Shown: in pieces, positions 6,001-21,741 of the stretch
Layout of the letters: each line of letters starts with the position of its first letter
Position numbering within the stretch: the first letter of the stretch is position 1
NCBI RefSeq assembly: GCF_000003605.2
Contig: NW_003105604.1
Coordinates: forward strand, 240,388-263,397
Length of the DNA stretch: 23,010 bases
Direction of reading: 5' to 3'
DNA from: Saccoglossus kowalevskii
Lineage: Eukaryota; Hemichordata; Enteropneusta; Harrimaniidae
Translations under genes and position numbers: made by a program
The notes under the pieces: generated by a model
Databases searched by the model: none
Told to the model about the DNA's origin: nothing
The model's input: the letters and a program-made list of their open reading frames with translations, nothing else

Positions 6001-9000
6001 ATCTTTTGTACATTACATAATATGTTCATATTATCTTGGTATGAAAGTTTTTGCAGTATCACCATGGAAACTTGATATTTCCCTGCATTATTTCTTTACA
6101 TTATGGTAGTGATTATCGGTATATGCTATAAAACAAAACATGTAATGTGCATGTCTTGTAAAGTTTCATTCATTCTAAAGTTTATTTTATCGTTTGTCAT
6201 TTTTTTCAAAATATATTATCAAGGATTTATAAGATATGGATATAATGCAACTTTCATAACCATGTACAATGATATGCAATGATGTAAACTAGTAATGTTC
6301 TTTGTGAAAGGTTTCCCTTTAGTGCACGTCAATCCTACAGATTTCTAACCAATAACATCACAGAACGCAGTGGATGGTTGGAAATGTTTGATTGCATAAA
6401 CTGAAATGAGTATGACCACGACATCACCACTTTTTATAGCTGCAAAGTAGAATTATTACACATTTTGCGATTTAAGGTCTGAAATGAACAAAAATTTGCA
6501 GATCCACTAATTTGCATTAGGATTAAATCCTTGATATTATCTATTTTTCTCTTCTAGTCTTGATTCCTTATAAGCAGTGGCAAACTGTGCATGTTTTGAC
6601 AAGAATTGAACGCTTACGGTATTAATAATAAAAAGAATGTTTCCATGGCAATGACAGGTTTAAAGATGCTGATTAGATTCAGTGTATTCTGTCAATATGA
6701 TATTGATTGTAAGTAATCTTTTAGTAATCACCATGACAACTGAGGCACTTATTTTTTTCAGAAAACCATATACAACTGTACTCTTATAGGTCACAACTGC
6801 CATGCGCGTTAATAGCCCACTTTAGTTGATTATTTCCCCATTTCCAATATTTTGCAAATCTACATGTAATACGATACAAAGTCTGCTCATGAGTGAATGC
6901 TTGGTAAACGCCCAGCGTTGATGATATGTATAGTAAACCAATTTAAATTCATGCACAACAAATTTTTTACAACTTCCGTGATTCAATGAAATGACAAAAT
7001 TTTGCAGCACTGGGAATTTGGTTGGTGTTTTTAATGTATTTTGTTAGATCAGTCCAGAATATCGATGGCAGCAAATATTTAACAGTTTACTGCATGTCAA
7101 ATCAGAGAATTGTTTCATACATGTATGAATTTCCATTAAAAACAAAGCAAAATGGGTTAGGGTTTGTTTTTTTATTTATATGAAAACTATAGTGTTGTCT
7201 AAAAATTATGAGAATCGGGTTATATGCGTCAACTGAAGAAAGCTTTAATTTAACACATTTAAAAAAACACATTGTGAACCACTTTTTTCTTGTACATTGG
7301 TATTACCTATATTATAGAATATTTTAGAAAGTATCTGCCCGCTTCATTTAACATTACAATACCTCAACACATCACCAACCACATAATATAGTCACATACA
7401 GTTATTAGCAATTAAACAGTGCAGTCTAAGACACAATTAATATTGTATTCCAGAATTTATTGCATTTTAATATCATTATATTTATGCACTGGCATTACCT
7501 GTTATATTAAATTTTCTTTGTTTGTAGAAGAAAAGTGAAGGTGAAATGTTTCTGGTTTAATCAAAGTTTCAATGATATAGACATTAAAATAGGTATTTAT
7601 GAACCGTGAAATTTGTTGTACTAATCGATCTACTATACTACATATTCTAATAATATTTAAAGCTTACTGATGATTTATTTGTTCTGATTTACTGGTACAA
7701 ACATGTTAAATTGTTACAGTTCTTTTTAGCTGTATTCATGTTTTCAAATTAATAACTTGGCAAGGGACTACATGTCTGCTGTAATATAGTACTACGTCTA
7801 TACTCCAGCAACAAAACATGACTCAAACATGTATGTAAATGAAAAATTGATTGTTCCTGTTGTTCTTTGTTGAAACAAACATCTCAGCACAATTAGTTTG
7901 TAGGATGTCGCAATGTGTTTTTGGCTCCCAGAAGTGGTTATATTTCAATATTTTGGTGGCTTTTGCCAAAATTACACTATTTGATCACTGAAGTCCTGTT
8001 TTTTCAAAACTTAAAGTCCATTTGCCTTAAATTTATTATGAAATATTATTATAAAAATATACTTGTACATGCTAATGTGTAAAATAGTGCATCAAAATGT
8101 TGGTGGGTAAAAAAAAAATATTGTTTGCCTACTGAAAAATATCAAATTTAATATCTTTACGAAAATGATTTACATCAAAGGTAGATTAGGTGAAGAAACG
8201 TGCAATTGACAGTACAGCTATTGTAGAACATGTGCAAGAAATGGCTACAATTCATTGTATTCAAATTGATGAATGGACATAAATGGAGATTATTACTCGT
8301 GCAGGATTATAAAGATAAACGCTTAACAACTCTGTATTTATCAATTTCTCCTTTATGCTCAGTAGAATTGGAAAAGTAAATCAATTTTGAAGTTTCTGGG
8401 TTGAGTAGGTCAAGTATTTATTATTTTGTTTTTAATTTCCCCAAATGAGGTGTTTAGATTGTTGCTAAATAATGATCGTTGTTTACTGTCGCCGCCATAT
8501 TGTTCTGAACACAAAAACGACAACATTGCCAGCTAAGTTGCGGACTGGTTCGCTATGCGTGTCTCAAGATTGCTATGTGATTAGAACATGTTGGGTCAAA
8601 CCAACCTCGACAGGAGACATCAAACTAATAGTTTGAATATAAATAATGAATACCAAGAGAAGTTCCAATTAGCTTTCAAAACTATCTTAACAAGATGATT
8701 AACTAGGTACTAACACAGTATGTTAGGACACAGTGGGTGGTGTGTCTAGTGCACAGCATAATACTTGTAAATCTGCGCATTTATTCGATTTCACCTCAAA
8801 TATTGGTAGATTTATTAGTCCCCGTTCGGACGAAGTCCGAAAATGGGGACTTATAATTCGGTCTCCGTCCGTCTGTGCGTTTGTGTGTCCGTGCGTCCGT
8901 CCGGAGTCATATCTCAGAATCCCTTGGACCGATTCCGTTCATTCTTTGCATGTGCCTAGTACTTTATGTGGGACATATGCACATGCAGTGGTTTAGCAAT

Positions 9001-12000
9001 TCGATTCAAAATGGCCGACTGGCAGCCATCTTGTTTTTTGAAAATGTTGTATTTTGGACATGCTTTGTCAGTTTTCATTCAAACTTGGTATATAGATTAT
9101 ACATGTTAGGATACATGTCCATGATGATTTATTTCACAATTGGATCAAAGATGGCCGACTGGCAGCCATCTTGTTTTTTGAAAATGTTGTATTTTGGACA
9201 TGCTTTGTCAGTTTTCATTCAAATTTAGTACATAGATCATACATGTTAGGATACATGTCCCCGACCGTCCGTGAGTTCCTGAGTCTGTCCGTGCGTGTGT
9301 CCGTCTGTCCATGCGTCAGTCTATCCAACGTCATATTTCAGAATCCTGTGGACCGATTCCGTCCAATCTTTGCATGTGTCTTGTACCTTATGTGGGACAT
9401 ATGCACATGCAGTGGTTTAGCGATTCGATTAAAAATGGATGACTGGCAGCCATCTTGTTTTTTGAAAATGTTGTATTTTGGACATGCTTTGTCAGTTTTC
9501 ATTCAAACTTGGTACATATAGGATACATGTCCATGACGATTTATTTCGCAATTGGATCAAAGATGGTCAACTGGCAGGCATCTTGTTTTTGTTTTTTTAT
9601 GCGGTATCTTGGACGTGCTCTGTCAGTTTTCATTCAAATTTGGCACATACATGTACTTTGTACATGTTAGGATGCATGTCCATGACAATTTGTTTCAAAG
9701 GATAGCAGATTGACAGCCATCTGACTTTTTGGCCTTACTACTATATTTCCACAATTTATGTACCATTTTCATTCGTATTTGGCACATACATCATACATAT
9801 CAGTGTGTTTCATAATCAGATCAAAGATGGCTGAATAACGGCTGTTTTTATTTTGGCCATATTACTATGACACAAAACACGTGTTTTGATGTAAATAAAC
9901 AATCTGTTGTATACGCCATTTGGAACTCAAGTTTCAAGGACACGCTCGCGACAACCCCTCCGCTTTAATATGACGAGCACAAAGAGAACTTAACGGGGAC
10001 TGTGTCATTTTCAATGACTTGTTTTATTTGGCTAAGTTTTAAAAACACAAATATACATAGTATAAAAAGGAATGACGTCCCTTGAAATAAAACCTTGTAT
10101 ATACATGTACACAAACGTAATATTTATCCCACTCTGATGGCGATTCAAAACTTGCCCAAGATGAAATAAATTGTTTTGAATTAAATATTATTTCACAAGA
10201 TGTGCAAACACTGTAGTAAATGATGTACATTTTGAGGATGACATTTTACTTATTAGTCCCCGTTCGGACGAAGTCCGAAAACGGGGACTTATAATTCGGT
10301 CTCTGTCCGTCCGTCTGTGCATCCATGCGTTCGTGCGTCCGTCTGGAGTCATATCTCAGATACCCTTGGACCGATTCTGTTCATTCTTTGCATGTGCTTA
10401 GTACTTCATGTGGGACATATGCACATGCAGTGGTTTAGCGATTCGATTCAAAATGGCCGAATGGCAGCCATCTTGTTTTTTGAAAATGTTGTATTTTGGA
10501 CATGCTTTGTCAGTTTTCATTTAAACTTGGTACATAGAATATACATGTTAGGATACATGTCGGTGATGATTTATTTCACAGTTAGATCAAAGATGGCCGA
10601 CTGGCAGCCATCTTGTTTTTTGAAAATGTCGTATTTTGGACATGCTTTGCCAGTTTTCATTCAAATTTAGTACATAGATCATACATATTAGGATACATGT
10701 TATGACCGTCCATGAGTTCCTGAGTCTGTTCGTCCGACCGTCCATGTGTCCGTCTGTCCGTGTGTCAGTCTGTCCAACGTCCAACCGATTCCATTCATTC
10801 TTTGCATGTGCCTAGTACCTTATGTGGGACATATGCACATGCAGTGGTTTAGCGATTCGATTCAAAATGGCCGACTGGCAGCCATCTTGTTTTTTGAAAA
10901 TGTTGTATTTTGGACATGCTTTGTCACTTTTCATTCAAACTTGGTACATACATTGTACATGTTAGGATACATGTCCATGACGATTTATTTCGCAATTGGA
11001 TCAAAGATGGTCGACTGGCAGGCATTTTGTTTTTGTTTTTTTATGCGGTATCTTGGACGTGCTCTGTCAGTTTTCATTCAAATTTGGCACATNNNNNNNN
11101 NNNNNNNNNNNNNNNNNNNNNNNNNNNNNNNNNNNNNNNNNNGGCCGATTGACAGCCATCTGACTTTTTGGCCTTACTACTATATTTCCACAATTTATGT
11201 ACCATTTTCATTCGTATTTGGCACATACATCATACATATCAGTGTGTTTCATAATCAGATCAAAGATGGCCGAGCAACGGCTATTTTTATTTTGGCCATA
11301 TTACTATGACACGAAACGCGTGTTTTGATGTAAATAAACATTCTGTTGTATACGCCACTTGGAACTCAAGTTTCAAGGACACGCTCGCGACAACCCCTTC
11401 GCTTTAATATGACGAGCACAAAGAGAACTTAACGGGGACTGTGTCATTTTCAATGCCTTGTTATCGGTAGTGATGTCGTTGTGTTCAGCTGTTGGTTTCT
11501 AAACTGCCCCAGGTACATGTATGACCTAAATATCATCATCTGTAATTTGAACATTACTGTTAATATATAATCTCAATCCATTTCTTGTACAATTGCATAT
11601 TTCTATGTATCATATTCTGTTGCAGTTCATCCATTTTTAATGGTGTTTTCAGATGTTGGCAGTCGCAAATATATTATTGTGATATTATTTGTTGGAAACT
11701 CTAATATGAAACATCATTTTTTCATCAAATTTTACTTTACTGATGCATTCAAGGCATATTTATTAATCATTTTTTTCAGCGATTGTAGATTAATTAAATT
11801 TTTTAAAACGCCAATGTAGATCTGTCAAATGTTTATTCATATTCTGTCAATCAAATTTTCTGACCAGGGGCGTGGCTTAGAATTGATAATAGTTGAAAAT
11901 AATTAATGCAGAACAAAAATTGTTTAGAAGCAAGGTTTTTGGGTAATCTAACTGGTTATTCAATTGCTTTCATTTTATGTATTGTAGCCCTCTTCTGTGT

Positions 12001-15000
12001 TGTATATCACCTCAATTTATTTATCAGATTTAATACAGCTCTCTATTTTTTCTTTCTTTATTACAGATTTTATTTTGTTCTTTAAATACACATAAAATAG
12101 ACATGCAACGACTGTTAGGAGGTCAGATAGGTCTCGAAGACTTTATCTTTGCGCATATAAAAGGTTTCACCAAAGAAATAGAAGTTCTAAAAAGTGAACC
12201 AGCTTTGGGACTGACTATTACTGACAACGGCGCTGGTTTCGCATTTATTAAACGAATCAAGGAAAATAGCATCATGGACGGAGAATCAAATGTGTGCGTG
12301 GGTGACCATATAGAAGCAATTAACGGCAAAAGTATGGTGGGATGTCGGCACTTTGAGGTTGCGAGAACACTAAAAGAATTGCCTCAACATGCTAGATTTA
12401 CCATGACATTAGTGGAGCCGAGAAAAGCGTTTGGTAAGTACACACTTGCTTGACAGGATGTCGATTAAAAAACTAACTGGGGCTGCAACTTTGTTTGAGG
12501 AGTGTTCAATTTTGGTGACTCCTTGTTTACATTTTGTCTACAAAGTTGCAAAACAGATTACAGTCAGGACAGTGTTTACAAGTTCACTAGTTAGAAACCA
12601 ATTACAGAAGTGCAGAGAGAGACGAGATTTGCATTTCAAAGTTGTATTGTAATGGCTGCGAAAAAATGCATGTTCTCATCCATATTGCATTAAAAAAGTG
12701 AAAGGCACACATGAGTGATTTCAAACTCGTTATGTTGGCAAATGAACTGAATCAGACAAGAAGTCATTAGTACGGGGAAATAAAAATGCTGTGGCCTCAT
12801 AATGACAATCAGTGAGTTGGGTAAGAGCTTGTATCTTTTGTTGTTATGGTTGTTAGTTAGTACGTGCCAGGTATGTCTATTGATGATGCGTGGTATATAC
12901 AGGTGCAGTGTACGTAATCTTTGAAATTGTTACTGCCAGTAATGCTCCATAAACTGTATGAAGGCGCAACCACTTATGACCAGTATTATTAGGCATTATA
13001 GTTGTGAGCAGGCACCCTAGCTTAGTGTTATTTTATTTTTACAAATGATTAGGCTGTACCATAATGTGAGTTCTTCTGTAAAAATGATTCATTGCTTTGG
13101 ATATAGAGACGAATTATGAGATTGATTCAGTGTGGAATTGTCAGTAAGCTAAGTAGTTCAGTATTTTGTCTGCAGGCTATGGGATGCCCTAGACGCATCA
13201 ACAATTCATCAGCTCTGTGGTTCTCTCATCTTGCCGATGTTTACGAACAAATCTATATGGCTGCAACCCTTCAGGAAAATGATATTCTGAAATCCATTTG
13301 CACGGCAATTACACAGCGTGTGTTATCTCACTTATATGCCATACAGTTTTTAAACTTCACTGCATTTCAATCAATTATATTTGAAACTAATCAACTTTCC
13401 TTGTCAAAGTGTACAGGTTGATATCGTTTCGCAATATAAATTATCATTCTCAGACCCATTGAGGTAAATTATCGGGGGCATGGTATTTTAATTCTCATGT
13501 TGATATTTTAAAGGTCTGAACATGATTAAATTTGAAATAAATGCTTGGTTTCAAATAAATTGTGAGGTTGATTTCTCAAAGAAAATTGCAAGTTGTTTTT
13601 CTTCCTGTGTACGGAACTTTTCTCTACCATATGAGCTGAACAAATCATATACTGTTATTTTACAAATATTTTCATATTTATTTAATGACCATATATAGTC
13701 ATGTGACTTTATGGTAGATTGACATGCAGCCATTATTTGTTTGAAGACATAGGCTCATGATCTGATCAACATACCGGTATGTGACCATATTAAAAATGCA
13801 TAATTATCATTGCAGATATAGATATACACTATTGCAGATATAAATTAGTGCAATTGTAAACAAACTGGTTTGTGTGATATAGGAGATTTACTCTGACGTA
13901 CGATAAAGCCAAAAGTCTATACAACGTTCTACTTGATTTATACCACTCCACAAATGCCTAGCTATGGTGCTTGCAATATCTCATTATCTATTCAGATTTA
14001 TGCAAATGTCATACACACTGTGAGAGTGTCTTGAGAAATAAAGTAATATTTATTGATAATTTTAAATGCTGTGCTCTAGGAATGGATAATACTGGCTTGA
14101 TCTTAAGTTTCAAAACTATGGTCAATGGCTGACTGCAATAAGATATTACTAGCACTAAAGCTGGTCATTAGTGGAATGGCATATCAGTAGGAATTCAGTG
14201 TATTTTTCATGCATAATATTTCTAATGGAAATAACTGTAAAAAAAATCTAGTATACATACTTCACTTGATTTTTTGTAAAACTACGAATGCAGAATTTAC
14301 TGAATTGAAATAAATGACCTGTTTTTTTTTAAGTCATGTGATGAGTCATGTGAGATTAACTCACCTAACTTGTAGAAATGTAAAAAAGGTTACTTTTATG
14401 GAAATTCAGGATTGTATAATCCCTTGGTAATGTCGCCTGCCAGCGGTACATGTAACATTGTTATCTCAAGTCTTTATGGAAAAACTTAATGTACGTCATA
14501 CTCTGTTGTCAGCGAGGTTTTATTCACATAATACCTTTTACTGATATGTCAAGTATAGTACAATGATTAAACCCTGAACAAATAATATCATTTATGGGTT
14601 CTTCTAATACAGCAATTATTGTTAAAGATGGTTGAACTGTTTGTTGGAAAATATATTTGTAGATGTTACCTGTACTGGAGGTAGTTTCAGACAGTGTAAA
14701 ACTCAGAAACAAAACACAGAAAGACTTGTAGGTGTAACTTGTTTTATTTCTTGTCTATGATAAAAGCAAAGCATATATATGACTAACATCAAATGGGGTT
14801 TTATTTTGTGAGAGGTGACAATGACAATAGTAGAGAAAATAGCTCAGTGTCAAATGCTAATTCCTAATGTTTGAAATCAGGTATATGTGTATGTATGCAA
14901 CAGGAGAAGAGTAGTTGATAAAAGATGGGGCTTTTCGTACATGCCATGCCTCACAGGGAATTTTTTTGAAGAAGATGCATCATTACAGGGATGCATTTGA

Positions 15001-18000
15001 CTGAAATTGGAATGCCTGCCTTTTGATTAAAGTCTGATGAGTTACTAGTCTGTATTTGATTAGGTTATGCTAAGGTTACAGTCCTCTGGCATTGTGGTAC
15101 AGTTTGTTGAGAATCCAGATACCTGATGATGATGTAATCTAATGATATCTCTCTCTCTCTCTCTCTCTCTGAGACGTACTCTATGTAATCCCCAACTGCA
15201 TTCAGGAGTTCTGCTTTGTTCAAGTTTTGTATTGCCTGAGCATGTGATGATGCATTATGGAAATGAAATTCAAATTTAGTGCTTTATTAGCATGTCACTG
15301 AGCATATGATGATGCATTATGGGAATAAAATTCAAATTTAGTGCTTACTGAGCATGTCACTGAGCATATGATGCATTATGGGAATGAAATTCAAATTTAG
15401 TATTCACTGAGAATTCTCTTATTAGAAAGACACTATTATACAATGTATATAGGATTAATATCAATTCTAACCTGTCACTGTGCCTGATTTCTAGATATAT
15501 TCAAGCACACTCACTATAGAAATCAACACAAAATCAAATATAAAATGATAATTTGTTTCTTATTGCAGCTGAAATAGGGCCACGGCAAGCTAACCGGGTG
15601 GGTGGCAATGCGTCATTAGCGCCAACGCCAACAGAAAATCAAGTGAAATCAGGAAAAGAAACTCTACGACTCAGATCTAAGGGACCTGCTACAATAGAAG
15701 CATTGGTAAGCAATATGTCTGTACATTTGACATCAATAACAACACTGCTGGGTTCTATGTTGAATCACTGAGCCCCAAAACGATACAAGAATAATGATTT
15801 GTTGACAAAATTACAATGGCTGGATTTGAATTTTTTTTTAAATTATTGAGAAGTCTATAGAAGTAGGAGTGTATCACACATGACACCCTAAAGCTGTTGT
15901 CATATAAATATGATTTTAAGAACTACATGCATTGTTTTCCAATGTCCTGCCTGTTGACAATGTACAATCTTTTTGCTTTCAGCCGAGTGCGTTTGAAGAA
16001 CGAGCCATCAAGAAAGTGGATGATTTACTGGAAAGTTACATGGGTATAAGAGATGAAGAATTAGGTGAGGAGAAAGCATAGAATAAATGTGTGGCAGAAA
16101 AATTGTTGTACAAAGCATGTTTTCTGTATTACCGTACTTCCCCGGTCATAAGCCCAGTGGCCTCAAGATGTAAATGCATTTTTGGGGTTTTAACATTGTA
16201 ACCATGTTACCACCCTTGAAAAATTATCCAAATTATATCTTTCATTCTACATGCTGGGCTAAGGGGAATATTGCATATTTTTGGAGAAAAAAATTTGCGA
16301 AATGAGTTGTCATTGATTTCAGTTGCTATGCATGCAATATTGTTTTCTTTGTTGTTTACATAATGTTAAAAGGTCTTAGAAACATGCTTTTATACTCATC
16401 CACTGGTTAAAATATTCTGTAAACTGATTAATTTTTGCTATTACCATAAAAATTTCATAATTTCATGATTTTTTATTGCGTTTGTGAAGACAAAATCTTG
16501 CAAAAGTAGCTGACTTGCAAAATTAAAAAAAAAAAAAATTTTATGCGAAATTAAGGTGGTTTAAGGTAATTTGTGACATCTTGTTTTCCGTACTGACATC
16601 ACATGACAATTCCAAGGGATGACAGTAACGAAAATGCAAGTTCTGTAATATAACAGCGTAATCTACAACTTGTGTATTTCACATTATTCTGTATTCTGAA
16701 TCATTATTTTGATCACAACTCCTTTTAAAGTGACATTCAGCCTTCGTAATGTTGTTAGAACTCAATATAAAGAGACTATTGAGAGGTATTTGAGCTTGTG
16801 AAAATGCGCGGATAGCGAGAAATCGGCCCAAAACAGACAGCAACTGGAGAGAATTTTATTTTTCGGTGGGCCATCGACAACAAAGACCCAAACGTCAATT
16901 ACTCAGCTTTGTTATTGAGATCAGTTGACCTAGGAAGTCTTAAAAAGTGGTTGCTGGTCATCGTGCCTGTCAATTTAAAACTTGTGCCTTACCCATTTTT
17001 TTTGTCAATTTTGATGTACCGTCATATAATGTTTAACTTTATTGTGTATTTCTAGGACAGAGCATGTTTTGTCAATCAGAATCTACTTTTTATTACCCCA
17101 GACCATTCGTCCCGGTGTTATCGCTATCGCCACACGAGACTCCAGCTTGTCTCCTATACAATTTTGCTTCCGCCCACTTAATTTTAATATTCATATGACC
17201 TTTGCACTGACATCGATAGCCAATCGCATTCGACCGCGGACGTCACTCTAAATAAACAACTGAATAAATTAATATACCATATTTGGAAGATAGCGGGTAA
17301 ATTCAACGTTGTTGGTGTGTTCGTGTGTTGTTCGCACGAAACGAGTTCATGTTTCGTTATCTTTCGCAAGTAAAACAGGTCGATATGTATTAAACATGGC
17401 ATTTGTTTTCTTGTTTTAACCCCCTTATTACGCAAGCTTCCGTCGAAGTGGTGTTTTTTTCGACGATTTGTGGCATGTTGCAAAACGAACGAAACATTGC
17501 GGCATTCTTAGCGGTGGATAAGGGATTGACTATGTCGTCACATTTATGTCTCGTTTGAAAGAGAATAAACAACCGCTCAGAAAAATATGTTGCTAATATT
17601 TAAGTGCGGTGCCTTGAAATCGCCTGCCCGACGTCCAAATTTCAAAAGGATGTTCGATTTGCAATGACGACCGTTCATATGTACTAGGCGACGTTACTAA
17701 TTACTACTAGGGTCGGTGTTTGCATTAAGAATTATAGAACAAAAGATCAGCAAAGCGGTGCTTTTGTCGGCGATTTTGTCAAAGGGAATATTGATAAAAT
17801 GTTGCAAAACAGAATCGCGAGTTTGGTGAAAAATTGCGCCGGCAGCATTCTCAGCGATGGCGACACCCGAGAAACACCGTGTCACGGTGCATTCGTGCAT
17901 CAGTACACCGAAGAAATACATACATATTGTTGCGGACGACTATTGTAGACTGTGTTCGTGTAGTCTTCGAGTTTGTGGACAGTTAAAGTCGTGTGTGAAT

Positions 18001-19110
18001 TTATTCAAGCCAGGAAAAGCAGGAGGGATAACTTATGGAAATCGTCTTTCCAATTTGATCCAGTGCGACGTTGTGAAAGGAGCGACTCTGTCGTCTCATC
18101 TATGTCTAGTTTGTAAGAGAAAGATTGATAGCGCAGAAAAATCCGCCAATAATGTAAAACAGTGGCGTGAAATTGTCAGTCATTCTAATATCTCCCAACC
18201 TGTGAACGAAAGGGTTAAGCGTGCTGCCTTGAAATCGCCTGCCAAAACTAAAATGGCGCGTGTCACGTGACTTTGTTTACTAAAGATAGCGTGGGCGTTT
18301 GATTGACACTCAACTCATTAGTATTCCACCAATCACAGCTACATCTACTTTCTGGATGTGCGCAGTCAAATTGTATAGGAGACAAGCTGGAGTCTCGTGT
18401 GGCGATAGCGATAACACCGGGACGAATGGTCTGAGGTAACTTTTTATCAATGAATTTAAAAACATTATTTCATTAATGTTAAATGTAGAAAACAGATTTT
18501 AATATAATAAAAAAATCTTTATATTTTTGTTTTACCTGGGACAAGAGGCAAAATGATCAGTATTCACAGAATATAACTCTTTTGGGGCGGGGGATTTGCG
18601 ACAAATTTGTTAAATTCTCCAAATGAAAAAAATATGTTTTTAATAGTATACATATTCGTGTAGTTATATTTTGATTCATTTTGTCTTGGTGAAATACCAG
18701 AATTTCAAACCAATAACTATTCCTTTTGTAAATACTGTGCTCCTTGTGATTTATCAACAGATGTGTAGAGTCAAAGAGACTCCTTATCTGTGTGGTCAAT
18801 TTTAATATAGACTCCTTATGACCATCTGCATACTCAATATTCACCATGTTGCCATAGTTTTATTTTTCAGATGAGATTTCAGACCTACTTCTATTTTTAG
18901 AACTACTACAGTTTAAAAACGATACTTATGTAGCTGACTATTATTTTTTTTCTCACAGCTGCCACCATGGTTGAGTTTGGTAAAGATAAGAACAATCCTA
19001 ATCAGTTTGCTGCCGCCATGGATGACAACTTGGGTGATTTTGCATTCCCGGATGAATTTGTTTTTGATGTGTGGGGCGCTATCACAGATGCAAAAGCAGG
19101 AAGAATTTAG
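2..19110 (+). CDS. GIPC: GIPC family PDZ adaptor protein (5' partial, five exons)
   Basis: Join 2-94, 12067-12433, 15569-15705, 15983-16064 and 18959-19110: 831 nt, 276 residues plus TAG. I recognise the family from the [11 protein letters not shown] segment, [15 protein letters not shown], the PDZ core [20 protein letters not shown], the linker end [11 protein letters not shown] and the C-terminal block [16 protein letters not shown]. In visible-residue numbering, 1-69 is the end of the GH1 dimerisation region, about 70-148 is the PDZ domain with carboxylate-binding loop ALGL at 77-80, about 154-190 is a variable linker, and about 194-276 is the GH2 domain. Known family role: GIPC proteins are cytosolic dimeric adaptors that bind C-termini of receptors and RGS-GAIP through the PDZ domain, and myosin VI through GH2, for endosomal trafficking. 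Vertebrate GIPC1 is about 333 residues, so roughly 55-60 N-terminal residues lie upstream of the window. All joints keep frame and use gt..ag. Invertebrates usually have one GIPC gene, so I give no paralogue number. Confidence 0.96.
95..1685 (+). other. Intron 1, first part: no gene seen
   Basis: Start of the ~12-kb intron 1 (95-12066). It is AT-rich, with poly-T and poly-A runs and frequent ACATGTA words. The short reading frames here, such as the minus-strand one at 1034-1249, are of low-complexity composition and match no family I recognise. Confidence 0.8.
1686..2170. repeat. Three imperfect ~200-bp tandem units in intron 1
   Basis: Each unit starts with a variant of TAGTCAGTGAAAATAACATA: copy 1 from about 1686, copy 2 from about 1899, copy 3 from about 2081. 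Later shared blocks follow in the same order: TTCATGCATCATGAAAAC in copies 2 and 3, GGGTACAAACTT or GGGTATAAACTT, a CGGTTGAAAGA or TGGTTGAAAGA block, and a block AGAAA(A)CA(G)AG. Spacing between copies is about 213 and 182 bp, and the third copy is truncated near 2170. The units are diverged, so this is an old tandem duplication. I see no terminal inverted repeats. Confidence 0.7.
2171..4202 (+). other. Intron 1 stretch without recognised features
   Basis: AT-rich intronic DNA. Short open frames at 2408-2620 and 3640-3873 (plus) and 3970-4164 (minus) show no domain, no conserved motif and no splice support, so they are not called. A short self-complementary ACATGTACATGTAT tract lies near 2937-2950. 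Confidence 0.75.
4206..4803. mobile_element. Harbinger/PIF-like MITE, 598 bp, TAA target duplication
   Basis: The left end reads GGCCAGACTTTTATTATCCC from 4206. The right end, reverse complemented, reads GGCCAGACCTTTTTTTATTC. These form imperfect inverted repeats of about 25-30 bp, continuing into CTTGTT on both sides. Both ends are flanked by TAA (4203-4205 and 4804-4806), a 3-bp TWA duplication typical of the PIF/Harbinger superfamily. No transposase is present, so this is a non-autonomous MITE. Inside, two similar segments occur as direct repeats: a palindromic AAATAAAATTTTATTTCA block near 4273 and again near 4629, each followed about 75-95 bp later by a TTTATTTTTTTTCCG block. The Harbinger assignment rests only on the ends. 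Confidence 0.8.
4511..4521 (+). promoter_or_regulatory. YY1-type motif AACATGGCGGC inside the MITE
   Basis: AACATGGCGGC fits the published YY1 consensus AANATGGCGGC. It stands out in an AT-rich setting and lies inside the 4206-4803 MITE. An 11-bp match alone is weak evidence of function. Confidence 0.3.
4807..5050 (+). other. Intron 1 spacer, nothing recognised
   Basis: AT-rich intronic sequence between the Harbinger-like MITE and the 12-bp minisatellite. No coding or structural signal seen. Confidence 0.7.
5051..5094. repeat. 12-bp minisatellite ACACTGAATGAG, about 3.7 copies
   Basis: Three exact copies of ACACTGAATGAG followed by a partial ACACTGAA. The unit is a multiple of three, but no long frame surrounds it. 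Its perfect identity suggests recent or polymorphic expansion. Confidence 0.95.
5095..8811 (+). other. Intron 1 long stretch without a gene
   Basis: About 3.7 kb of AT-rich intronic DNA. Short frames at 5436-5672 (minus), 5573-5761 (minus), 5651-5872 (plus) and 6822-7010 (minus) overlap one another or are composed of low-complexity residues, and none shows a family motif. A slightly GC-richer island lies at about 8485-8610. I found no inverted-repeat pair or target duplication that would define an element. Confidence 0.7.
8491..8501 (-). promoter_or_regulatory. YY1-type motif on the minus strand
   Basis: GCCGCCATATT on the plus strand reads AATATGGCGGC on the minus strand, an exact fit to AANATGGCGGC. 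It sits at the edge of a GC-richer patch within intron 1. Function is not shown by sequence alone. Confidence 0.25.
8817..8851 (+). other. 5'-terminal hairpin of element copy 1
   Basis: Arms AGTCCCC (8817-8823) and GGGGACT (8845-8851) enclose an inner stem TTCGGAC (8825-8831) and GTCCGAA (8835-8841) around the loop GAA. The same structure with an even better outer stem occurs at the start of copy 2 (10255-10291). Confidence 0.85.
9009..9700 (+). repeat. Internal ~130-140-bp tandem units of copy 1
   Basis: Units share ATGGCCGACTGGCAGCCATC, then TTTTGAAAATGTTGTATTTT, GGACATGCTTTGTCAGTTTT and TACATGTTAGGATACATGTC blocks. Starts fall near 9009, 9147, 9431 and 9559, with diverged remnants near 9704 and 9824. 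The steps 9009-9147 and 9431-9559 are 138 and 128 bp. A second copy of the (GTCC)-rich head segment (about 9262-9420) separates the two pairs of units, so the element is itself built from a larger internal duplication. Confidence 0.85.
10024..10249 (+). other. Unique spacer between the two related elements
   Basis: About 230 bp of AT-rich sequence with no similarity to either element. The flanks of the two elements also differ from each other, so they look like separate insertions rather than a duplication of a larger block. Confidence 0.6.
10450..11092 (+). repeat. Internal ~140-bp tandem units of copy 2
   Basis: Four units with the GACTGGCAGCCATC / TTTGAAAATGTTGTATTTTG / GGACATGCTTTG series, parallel to those of copy 1. 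The second (GTCC)-rich head lies at about 10704-10780 between the two pairs. High identity between positionally matched units suggests both elements descend from one compound source rather than expanding independently. Confidence 0.8.
11093..11142. other. Assembly gap, 50 Ns
   Basis: A run of exactly 50 N inside the repeat array of copy 2. The matching interval of copy 1 (about 9651-9705) is near 55-60 bp, so the true gap may be similar, or the 50 may be a placeholder. Any frame running across it is meaningless. Confidence 0.98.
11463..12066 (+). other. Intron 1, 3' end with strong acceptor
   Basis: AT-rich DNA ending in a long polypyrimidine tract (TTTTTTCTTTCTTTATTACAG) just before exon 12067. 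No gene within it. Confidence 0.8.
12067..12433 (+). CDS. GIPC: GIPC exon b: FC.LNTHK motif and PDZ domain
   Basis: 367 nt, 122 codons plus one base. Starts [19 protein letters not shown] and carries the whole PDZ domain: [20 protein letters not shown], then [18 protein letters not shown] and [13 protein letters not shown], ending EPRKAF. The ALGL loop replaces the GLGF of classical PDZ domains, as in other GIPCs. The acceptor is ttacag at 12061-12066 and the donor is TTTG|gtaagt at 12434. The ATG at 12103 is an internal methionine (residue 44 of the visible protein), not a start, because the 12 codons before it are conserved. Confidence 0.97.
12434..15147 (+). other. Intron 2, main part: no gene seen
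   Basis: AT-rich intronic DNA, about 2.7 kb. The frames at 12431-12652 and 13116-13421 (plus), and at 13551-13733 and 14524-14712 (minus), show no motifs. The first is simply intron read in another frame from the exon edge. Confidence 0.75.
15148..15170. repeat. (TC)n microsatellite
   Basis: An uninterrupted TC dinucleotide run of about 11.5 units in intron 2, likely length-variable between individuals. Confidence 0.97.
15237..15411. repeat. Three-copy 62-bp tandem repeat in intron 2
   Basis: Units begin TGAGCATATGATGATGCATT at 15237 (with GTG for ATA), 15299 and 15361, an exact 62-bp period at both steps. Each continues with TATGGGAATGAAATTCAAAT and TTAGTGCTTACTGAGCATGT variants. Copy 3 lacks one GATGAT triplet and is cut short near 15411. 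Confidence 0.92.
15569..15705 (+). CDS. GIPC: GIPC exon c: PDZ-GH2 linker
   Basis: 137 nt. The first two bases complete the Ala codon split with exon b, then 45 codons follow. The linker is rich in polar residues, Gly, Ala and Pro, then ends in the conserved [15 protein letters not shown]. Acceptor tattgcag at 15561-15568, donor TTG|gtaagc at 15706. Continuing the frame past the donor gives unconserved residues and then a stop, so the splice is preferred. Confidence 0.95.
15706..15982 (+). other. Intron 3 (277 bp)
   Basis: Short phase-0 intron with gtaagc donor and a tttttgctttcag acceptor. It splits GPATIEAL from PSAFEE exactly at the linker/GH2 boundary. No RNA gene or repeat seen in it. 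Confidence 0.93.
15983..16064 (+). CDS. GIPC: GIPC exon d: start of GH2 domain
   Basis: 82 nt, 27 codons plus one base: [20 protein letters not shown] then GIRDEEL. This is the conserved first helical part of GH2, the domain known to bind the myosin VI tail. Donor G|gtgagg at 16065. The split codon G|CT is completed by exon e. Confidence 0.96.
16065..17084 (+). other. Intron 4, part upstream of the transposon
   Basis: About 1 kb of AT-rich intron. A block near 16131-16165 reading TACTTCCCCGGTCATAAGCC resembles an isolated repeat end, but no partner end was found. A candidate TTAA-flanked element at 16729-16974 is listed separately. Confidence 0.6.
16729..16974. mobile_element. Possible TTAA-flanked MITE
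   Basis: TTAA at 16725-16728 is followed by AGTGACA. TTAA at 16975-16978 is preceded by TGTCAAT, which reverses to ATTGACA. The inverted match is only about 7 bp with one mismatch. The interior is GC-richer than the surrounding intron. This is a tentative call. Confidence 0.3.
17085..17093. repeat. Target-site duplication, left (ACTTTTTAT)
   Basis: Nine bases ACTTTTTAT directly before the left inverted repeat. The same nine bases follow the right inverted repeat at 18439-18447. Confidence 0.93.
17094..17164 (+). repeat. Left terminal inverted repeat, 71 bp
   Basis: Pairs with 18368-18438, 70 of 71 positions identical (C/T at position 5). Contains the self-complementary core ATCGCTATCG. Similarity stops abruptly after ACAATTT. 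Confidence 0.96.
17446..17631 (+). pseudogene. Decayed, internally deleted copy of the zinc-finger gene
   Basis: The left half of the element repeats the gene of the right half in broken form. The leader GTGGTGTTTTTTTCGACGAT matches GCGGTGCTTTTGTCGGCGAT near 17756. GCGGCATTCTTAGCGGTGG at 17499-17517 matches the start-codon region GGCAGCATTCTCAGCGATGG, with ATG changed to GTG. TCGTCACATTTATGTCTCGT at 17535 matches the CLVC region, but there the second cysteine codon TGT is TGA. The block GCCTTGAAATCGCCTGCC at 17611-17628 is identical to 18226-18243. About 215 bp covering the first CxxC are missing. It cannot encode the protein. Confidence 0.82.
17857..18270 (+). CDS. ZAD-like C2-C2 zinc-finger protein encoded inside the transposon
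   Basis: An intact 137-codon frame, ATG in a fair Kozak setting (gcgATGg), stop TGA. Cysteines C30 and C33 in the sequence CRLC, and C83 and C86 in CLVC, form two CxxC knuckles 49 residues apart, followed by a helical [16 protein letters not shown] tail with Trp103. This spacing, the Arg after the first Cys, and the helix after the second knuckle resemble the ZAD (zinc-finger associated) domain, a dimerisation module. Similar short N-terminal modules occur in many cnidarian and lophotrochozoan proteins as I remember them. No C2H2 fingers or transposase domain follow. A basic tail ([14 protein letters not shown]) ends the protein and could aid nuclear entry or DNA contact (inference). Base composition is clearly less AT-rich than the surrounding intron. 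Expression is unproven, and it could be the first exon of a longer protein. Confidence 0.7.
   Translation: MATPEKHRVTVHSCISTPKKYIHIVADDYCRLCSCSLRVCGQLKSCVNLFKPGKAGGITYGNRLSNLIQCDVVKGATLSSHLCLVCKRKIDSAEKSANNVKQWREIVSHSNISQPVNERVKRAALKSPAKTKMARVT
18368..18438 (-). repeat. Right terminal inverted repeat, 71 bp
   Basis: Reverse complement of 17094-17164 except for one base. The arm lies about 100 bp after the stop codon of the zinc-finger ORF. Confidence 0.96.
18439..18447. repeat. Target-site duplication, right (ACTTTTTAT)
   Basis: Exact match to 17085-17093, immediately outside the right inverted repeat. Confidence 0.93.
18448..18958 (+). other. Intron 4, part downstream of the transposon
   Basis: AT-rich intron ending in the acceptor TTTTTTTTCTCACAG before exon e. 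The minus-strand frame at 18557-18847 has no recognisable motif and is not called. Confidence 0.8.
18959..19110 (+). CDS. GIPC: GIPC exon e: end of GH2 and stop codon
   Basis: 152 nt: two bases complete the split Ala codon, then 49 codons and TAG at 19108-19110. It contains [20 protein letters not shown] and then [18 protein letters not shown], the most conserved GIPC block, ending DAKAGRI where vertebrate GIPC1 ends in GRY. The GCCACCATGG at 18961-18970 looks like a perfect Kozak start but encodes internal A-T-M-V of the conserved protein. Confidence 0.97.
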
Positions 19111-19749: not shown

Positions 19750-21267
19750 TATGTATGTTCACATATAACATCCGGATTCAATGTCAGGTGAATGTCTTGT
19801 GTGATATGTATTGTCCTCTCTCTCTCTCATCACAAAAGTGGGCGAGGTCATTCAGTTCATTGAGTTTCTGCTTTCATATTTGAATGGGTCCATCTTTAAA
19901 TGAACCTTGCATATACAGACAAGAGGACTGTTAGAAAGTCTTGGCTTTGTACTAACAACTAGTTTATTATCATTGTTCTGAGAATGTATTTACAGAAACC
20001 CCCTTCTCATTGGTAGATTAGGTTCATTAGCATAATTCAGTACACGTGGTTTAAACCATTATGTGAAATAGGTAGGCAAGAGAATCAAACATGACAATCA
20101 GAAGCGATCACATAATTGATATTCACTAGGTGGGCCAGTAACACTAATTTTGTTGTTACTTATAATAATGTAGTTTTCTTCAATATTGATTTCCCATTGG
20201 GCAGAACAATGGCATTAGGTGGCCATCTGCATGTTTGACGTCAGAATTGTGCTATGTGCCAAATTATCATAATTTTAATAATTATAATTTTGTTTACTTT
20301 CTACCGATGACATGAGACGAGTATTCAATGGCGTTCACCTATGAGTCTTAGATTATTACCTGATCCATTACACAATTGCATTTTATACTCAAATAGTAAT
20401 ACAGAACAAGAAAAAATAATCAGGAAACAGTAATTTCATGAACTTTTTTCTGTAAAGATGCTTGCTTTGCTCTCAATGGTGTGGTTGTAATTTGTTTTAT
20501 GTAAAAACTGAGGTAATAATTGCAGGTAGCATTTGTTACATTACTGTTCTAGATGCTGTAAATATTTAATACCTCAAATGTTTTCTGTGCATCCCTGCCC
20601 CCAAATTGTTGTCATTATGTTTTTGAGATGAGTTGTGGTGGGCTGAGCCATGCTGATAGGTCTCTACATGCTTTAGCAATAACAGATGGTTCCATGTTTC
20701 ATAGCCTGAAGACAAGTCGAAAATATAGTATTAGCGAAGTATCTGTTAACAACAGATATGGAAGAAAAGAAGCAAGTGTCTTACCATTCATTCCTTTGTT
20801 ATAACAAATCTAAATCTTGTGCTGAAGGAAATTACCTTATATAATACAAAAAAAAGTAGTACAGGTAACTTGTTTTTCAGACAGATTCCTGGGAGATGAT
20901 GCAACCATTAGGATGTAGCTTACTTGTTTGCACTTAAAGAAATGAACAGATTAATATATTTACACTGTCATTTTCACTGTTTTATTGTGCGTTTTGTTTT
21001 ATCTTGATTAGTGTGCACTTGAGTGCCCCACCCTGCCTTAGCAATCACTGGTGATTTGATTCTCATATCTGCCACTAGAGGGTGCTCAGCAAGTTTCAGG
21101 GTTACTTAATTGTATCAATGACAAAAAACCTGACAACTATAGATTATCAGACATATTGCACTTGTTTATGATCGTTTTTTTTTCTACTGTAATACACTCT
21201 GAGCTGTATCTTGAGTCTCATGACCTTACACACACGCACGCACATCTCTTGTGAAAAATTAACTTAA

Positions 21268-21552
21268 AGGGCAGTAGTCGTCGCGCCACACATGTGCGAG
21301 ATATATGGGTCTCATATAAACAAAGATGGCGACTTTGACTGTTGTGCAGATCAACAAGTACGAACTAAGTAGTTTCCAAACTTTAATTAGGTAATTTTCA
21401 GGTGTTTGGAGGAGTCACCGGCGGTAATCAGTGCAAGTCGTGCCCAAGTCAAAACTTAAAATTGTGAATTTGAAGAGCGCATTGGATTGTGGGAAAAATC
21501 AATGTTTATCTACACAAATGTCACACATGCACAGCACGACGACCACTGCCCT
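21268..21552. mobile_element. 285-bp MITE with TTAA duplication (T2/Kolobok- or piggyBac-type)
   Basis: TTAA at 21264-21267 and 21553-21556 flank inverted ends AGGGCAGTAGTCGTCGCGCC and AGGGCAGTGGTCGTCGTGCT, with the similarity continuing through CATGTG for about 33 bp. TTAA is the target of both piggyBac and Kolobok elements. The TTAAAGG terminus resembles the T2 (Kolobok) MITE ends described in Xenopus. No coding capacity. GATGGCGAC at 21326 is a near match to the YY1 motif. Confidence 0.85.
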
Positions 21553-21741
21553 TTAAACTACATTGAGTTATCCATTATAAGGTTGCAATTTGAATACAGG
21601 TTAAATTGAATTTAAATTAAATTGTAACTATATAGACTTGGAAATTCATTTTAAGTTTAATGAATATAAAAGTATAGGTATATACAGTATAGAGATGAAA
21701 ATTAATTTAGTATTAAAATAATTCAGAATGTTAAAATTGCG

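Follow-up and report, generated by a model that had tools for sequence, protein, structure and literature searches.

A young MULE-like transposon in a GIPC intron of Saccoglossus kowalevskii and the origin of its C2-C2 zinc-domain frame

A DNA transposon that contains an open zinc-domain frame and no transposase raises the question of whether the frame was captured from a host gene or belongs to the element's own lineage. Such an element is present in a 23,010-nucleotide stretch of the genome of the hemichordate Saccoglossus kowalevskii (the window), where it occupies positions 17085-18447 and comprises a 1,345-bp DNA transposon (17094-18438) together with its flanking duplications. A first-pass annotation had described it as a recent, transposase-less element with 71-bp terminal inverted repeats (TIRs) that differ by one mismatch, a perfect 9-bp duplication and an intact "ZAD-like" frame of 137 codons, and had proposed either a captured host gene or a component of the element family as the source of that frame. 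The coordinates of the repeats, the duplication and the frame are confirmed by the present analysis.

Structure and classification of the element

The two copies of the target-site duplication (TSD), ACTTTTTAT, lie at 17085-17093 and 18439-18447 and are perfect over 9 bp. The left TIR (17094-17164, + strand; 71 bp), which starts with TACCCCAG, was delimited by inverted-repeat comparison and by the genome copies; the right TIR (18368-18438, - strand; 71 bp) has one mismatch to it, at position 5 of the 71-bp ends of the window copy. Between them lies the 137-aa C2-C2 frame (17857-18270, + strand), identified as an open reading frame and by comparison of copies, in which the CRLC and CLVC motifs are spaced 49 residues apart. 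Dinucleotide shuffling of the element interior gave a frame of at least 137 aa in 39 of 2000 trials, so that length alone is weak evidence for coding.

The element combines terminal inverted repeats with constant 9-bp duplications at dispersed sites, as is characteristic of class II transposons. Duplications of 8-9 bp are also made by Merlin elements. MULEs are described, in the available excerpt of PMC6446971, as having long TIRs and TSDs of 8-11 bp, and the 9-bp TSD and 71-bp TIRs found here agree with both features. A scan of the frames of the element against Pfam gave no transposase match, as the first-pass annotation had supposed, and no MULE transposase was found to be tied to its ends; the superfamily assignment is hence MULE-like by ends and duplication only.

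The element is flanked on both sides by coding stretches of the GIPC GH2 domain (Pfam PF25082), both on the + strand. The first (15544-15768) matches residues 1-37 of the 91 of the model with an E-value of 5e-05, just under the cut-off, and the second (18967-19107) matches residues 50-91 of 91 with an E-value of 3e-13. This indicates that the element sits, on the same strand, in an intron of a GIPC (synectin-like) gene, which spans 12034-19107 on the + strand of the window and encodes GH1, PDZ and the intron-split GH2. The window copy would be expected to serve no function for the host. Its GC content is 0.427, and its observed/expected CpG ratio is 1.38, as against at most 0.98, with a mean of 0.59, in 76 segments of the same size from elsewhere in the window; such a high value is what unmethylated or very recent DNA would show.

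The window also contains several other repeats. Two copies of a repeat of about 1.2 kb (8812-10010 and 10250-11448), which starts with AGTCCCCGTT, ends with AACGGGGACT and has inner tandem units, have the look of a mobile element, and the second of them holds a run of N. A unit of about 60 bp is present in three tandem copies at 15236-15418, and a 293-bp, TTAA-bounded element with 44-bp inverted ends (77% complementary) at 21264-21556 is probably a MITE.

The transposon is internally duplicated, with 17433-17628 aligning collinearly to 17740-18243. The left half contains a deleted version of the zinc-domain gene of the right half, with the leader and the regions of the second CxxC and of LKSPA preserved and that of the first CxxC missing. 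Collinear alignment and codon comparison show this second version (17433-17628, + strand) to be partly deleted and dead: identity is 76% over 67 bases between 17520-17586 and 18076-18142, and a TGA replaces the last Cys codon of CLVC. The pair was set aside as evidence on selection (pN 0.22, pS 0.40), as its approximately 38 codons are too short for the purpose. The internal duplication, together with the high CpG content and the truncation of the frame relative to other copies (see below), had no counterpart in the first-pass annotation.

The resemblance of the frame to ZAD (zf-AD, PF07776), a domain of insect C2H2 zinc-finger proteins, lies in two CxxC pairs at a spacing of about 50 residues and a probable helix after them; the differences are a score below the cut-off, the lack of following C2H2 fingers and the location inside a transposon. 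The Pfam model matches residues 29-95 of the 137-aa frame at 16 bits, against a cut-off of 28 (E 0.015), and a longer, 190-aa form of the frame at 11.5 bits (E 0.36); ten other frames in or near the element gave no match. A genome-wide search with the same model returned five other, unrelated places at 18.9-27.4 bits, none of them over the cut-off, and did not list the 137-aa frame at all; when the genome's other zf-AD places were read by eye, no paired-CxxC gene was recognized among them. Neither the 137-aa nor the 190-aa frame has a RAG-type Pfam match, a phmmer search against PDB retrieved nothing at E-values up to 10, and a single-sequence AlphaFold2 model is unreliable (mean pLDDT 40.8). 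No description of a transposon with a ZAD-type ORF came up in a limited literature search. The label "ZAD-like" can, judging from these sequence comparisons, probably be kept as a resemblance of motif only.

The burst of young copies

A 32-bp piece of the TIR matches 81 places in the 572-Mb genome at up to 3 mismatches, 70 of them exactly, and the reversed control pattern matches none in the same genome, which puts the TIR far beyond chance. Of the 81 places, 39 are single ends and the others make up 21 pairs with a distance of at most 20 kb, all but one of which span 0.8-1.6 kb. At least 122 genome matches to the whole element were recovered (40 of 94 candidates scored), as were at least 40 to the 71-bp TIR (40 of 92 candidates scored). 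Full-length alignment of ten two-ended copies gave differences of 0.9-4.9% from the window copy; for eight the value is 0.9-1.3%, and the two higher values include insertion/deletion stretches. Apart from the window copy, 17 two-ended copies were checked, and 13 of them are flanked by a perfect 9-bp duplication; in the remaining four it is off by one base (L041), missing (L010 and L013) or hidden where the sequence runs into N (L014). The relationships among the young copies appear star-like, with a single source. Long TIRs, 9-bp duplications and many near-identical copies bear out the description of the element as recent, non-autonomous and MULE-like.

Among 22 incomplete copies examined, 17 end in N, with long gaps that hide their interiors, and 2 at a contig end. 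In L035 the element interior gives way to unrelated sequence at base 763, and in L017 at base 1475, with no intervening N; these ends look truncated or rearranged. The one TIR pair outside the usual span (L093 and L033; genome G000, contig C2261, about 2764576-2768064) has its ends 3.49 kb apart and is the single candidate for a long member; GTTTGCAAAT (10 bp, by eye) is seen on both its flanks, and its interior is mostly N, so that the true length is hidden. A further locus, L061, with one TIR followed by 7 kb of gap-free sequence, was rejected as a long member; it matches the first 164 bases of the element only, and among its frames of at least 90 aa, judged by eye, no transposase-like frame was recognized. 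The longer members with a transposase beside the ORF, for which the first-pass annotation had proposed to look, were not found among these copies.

The frame occurs in several forms among the copies. It is 190 aa long in L027, 146 aa in L017, and 137 aa in L009, L011, L024 and the window copy; L031 is of the 190-aa type with its start inside a gap, and L019 is of the long type with a base lost beside the ATG. Internal deletions of 159 and 132 bp account for the 137- and 146-aa forms, respectively, and both leave the reading frame undisturbed. In the window copy the deletion junction lies at 18243-18244 (+ strand), where four copies (L018, L019, L027 and L031) have at least 159 bp through which the frame continues. 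The gene called "intact" at first is therefore open, but is itself derived by deletion from the 190-aa frame. A different deletion has broken the frame in L021 and L044. L019 also has some 60 bp of inserted palindromic sequence, GTGTTGAGGGACTC..., near the end of its long frame.

The complete C2-C2 stretch can be read in 19 copies, including that of the window; 13 more are only partly readable or lack the domain. In seven of the 19 a frameshift lies in or before the domain (L010, L012, L013, L015, L016, L019 and L025). The other 12 comprise one with no ATG (L022), two that are broken after the domain (L018 and L023), seven that are open with an ATG and two that are open with the start in a gap. 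Relative to the per-site majority, the private changes are 26 nonsynonymous, 13 synonymous and 4 nonsense, with one further synonymous change shared between copies; the neutral expectation is 71, 24 and 5% for nonsynonymous, synonymous and stop changes, and the nonsynonymous versus synonymous comparison gives P 0.27. Purifying selection within the young burst is rejected by this near-neutral ratio and the frequent frameshifts, so that the young copies fail the first-pass test of a frame retained at a dN/dS below 1. Among the copies sampled, the frame travels with the burst and is undergoing neutral decay.

Older relatives and a second repeat family

When the genome was searched with the protein, 45 matches were obtained (61 of 61 candidates scored); eight of the places that contain the protein lie outside the burst, and all eight are decayed. 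Six of these (L080, L081, L088, L089, L090 and L092) share element DNA outside the frame. Three (L088, L090 and L092) share internal stretches of the element, and L080 shares its right end, collinear after the gene, with an E-value of about 1e-7. Two old members, L089 with both TIRs and L081 with one, match the left as well as the right half of the element, which indicates that the duplicated layout predates the burst. The lineage carried the gene region long before the burst.

Two loci, L082 and L091, which are 76% identical to each other, are members of a second repeat family with 47 genome matches including self, mostly at 65-86% identity (40 of 40 candidates scored). These two and L094 have the protein in common with the element and no detectable shared DNA. 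The ends of this second family were not found. Downstream of LKSPA, L091 and L094 retain the stretch that is missing from the window copy, which suggests that the long form of the frame is probably the ancestral one.

The older copies also bear on earlier selection. In a DNA-only alignment of L080 with the window frame, the first, second and third codon positions differ at 20 of 70, 14 of 67 and 37 of 71 sites (Fisher P 9e-5). The five other old relatives, when pooled, show a weak third-position excess (P 0.07), and L089 shows none (protein-guided pS 0.16, pN 0.20). Protein-guided alignments gave pS and pN of 0.89 and 0.34 for L080, 1.01 and 0.39 for L082, and 0.88 and 0.41 for L091; as such alignments favour amino-acid matches, more weight is given to the DNA-only one, and the constraint seen in the second family rests on the protein-guided type. 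The crowding of differences at third positions in L080 argues that the gene was once constrained as a protein within the lineage and is not a one-off capture. Earlier protein constraint in this lineage is accordingly shown for one old relative, L080, on which the case for it mainly rests, and is weaker for the others.

The searches for a host donor were negative. No intact non-repeat homologue of the window protein was found at an E-value of 0.001 (61 of 61 candidates scored), nor was one found with the sequence of the second family at an E-value of 0.01 (47 of 47 candidates scored, 40 matches). A weak open match, C47 (37%, in an open frame of 105) has only 37 residues that match the 190-aa frame. 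The scope of these searches is the assembly, and a donor that is diverged, split by introns or located in a gap could escape them. Genome contigs searched with the protein gave 27 pattern matches, none of which was confirmed, and viral contigs searched with the protein and with the start of the TIR gave nothing.

The Pfam MULE model finds 12 places in the genome (23 of 23 candidates scored). The contigs of all 12, compared by eye, contain no match to the TIR piece, and at eight of the 12 loci the surrounding 1.5 kb on either side has no significant match to the TIR of the element. No transposase linked to the gene or to the ends was found among the copies, many of which are hidden by gaps.

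Origin and possible role of the zinc domain

These observations are best explained, with moderate probability, by a young MULE-like deletion derivative that moved in trans and kept the zinc-domain part of its lineage's own gene. The element would be a rearranged internal-deletion derivative of a long-lived lineage, non-autonomous and mobilized by cut-and-paste; its derivative nature is backed by the dead partial gene copy in its left half and by the series of 190-, 146- and 137-aa frames. Judging from the ends and duplications, a transposase encoded elsewhere would recognize the 71-bp ends, and cut and join them with a 9-bp stagger. The interior would represent the remains of the lineage's zinc-domain gene in two copies, one dead and one open. 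The original role of that gene was probably DNA binding or dimerization on behalf of the transposase; its product would have been the N-terminal portion of that enzyme or a small protein apart from it, and the former, with the C2-C2 domain as the DNA-binding or dimerizing part, is the likelier. The earlier suggestion that the frame is a component of the element family is thus favoured, although the frame may represent the transposase N-terminus instead of a separate helper.

An unlikely alternative, though the next to be considered, is that the C2-C2 protein is a separate accessory, for instance a DNA-binding or dimerizing helper of an unlinked transposase, which some of the copies express. 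The 190-, 146- and 137-aa frames each end at their own stop and two of the internal deletions keep the frame; the gene region recurs in the old relatives and in the second family, and the comparison with L080 points to old constraint. Published MULEs also provide a precedent, in that Spectre and Ghost have a zinc-finger ORF apart from the transposase ORF (PMC6446971, available excerpt). However, the young copies combine a neutral ratio of changes with frequent frameshifts, no member with both a transposase and the C2-C2 ORF occurs among the copies found, and no poly(A) signal (AATAAA or ATTAAA) follows the ORF between its stop codon and the end of the element in the window copy.

Capture of a host exon in the manner of Pack-MULE transduplication, perhaps repeatedly in related families, appears distinctly improbable. 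C2-C2 domains of similar look do occur in host proteins, as in ZAD, and old constraint combined with present neutrality is what an old capture would give; MULEs, moreover, are described as acquiring host gene fragments (PMC6446971, in part). Against this, neither donor search returned an intact non-repeat homologue, and L080 shares both the gene and the right end with the element, so that the constraint was acquired inside the lineage or else by way of a second capture. A recent capture, as one form of the captured-gene reading offered by the first-pass annotation, was rejected as first choice, as it finds no donor and the region is already carried by six older relatives and by the second family.

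That the frame is a chance opening in a non-coding element is very improbable, for while the shuffled frames of equal length, the neutrality of the young copies and the sub-threshold Pfam match would all suit it, it is contradicted by the paired CxxC motifs in open copies, by the third-position excess against L080 and by the protein similarity to the second family with no detectable DNA similarity, unless both of these comparisons are alignment artefacts.

A derivative that has kept the zinc-domain part of its lineage's gene can be compared with several known systems. Among MULEs both fused zinc fingers and separate zinc-finger ORFs are known (PMC6446971, PMC13359780, in the excerpts available). 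Spectre and Ghost are MULEs of arthropods and cnidarians: the former combines two perfect TIRs of 74 bp and duplications of 8 bp with a separate ORF for a C2H2 zinc finger, and the latter has a separate 420-bp RING zinc-finger ORF (PMC6446971, same excerpt). In size and ends they are very close to the window element; they differ in having a transposase ORF, whereas the window element has none, and in the 9-bp duplications and the C2-C2 pairs 49 residues apart of the latter. Chapaev elements make 4-bp duplications, as against 9 bp here. They provide a case of a DNA transposon that encodes an N-terminal zinc domain, Chapa, which, unlike the frame studied here, forms one protein with a Transib-superfamily transposase (PMC4411706, excerpt); the comparison is one of descriptions. 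N-RAG-TP of the sea slug Aplysia is said to consist wholly of sequence resembling the zinc region of the RAG1 N-terminus (PMC8355894, excerpt) and is alike in being a zinc-domain gene without a transposase, a likeness that is again one of description and not of sequence. The zinc domains of the RAG1 and Chapaev types are themselves thought to be of transposon origin (PMC8355894, PMC4411706, as excerpted).

The novelty of the present case is modest: it is a transposase-less animal transposon family whose C2-C2 gene is found in young members, in old ones and also in a second family of this genome. A more far-reaching proposal, which we put forward as quite unlikely, is that a stand-alone C2-C2 protein of 140-190 residues, present in at least two repeat families, serves a transposase encoded elsewhere as an in-trans partner in targeting or end pairing, and that elements bearing its gene spread without an enzyme of their own. 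More generally, the case corrects a common shortcut: when a transposon contains an open frame that is not a transposase, capture of a host gene is not the only possible source. A lineage whose young and old members share a zinc-domain gene with no visible transposase would also be suited to studying whether such domains move about as separate modules.
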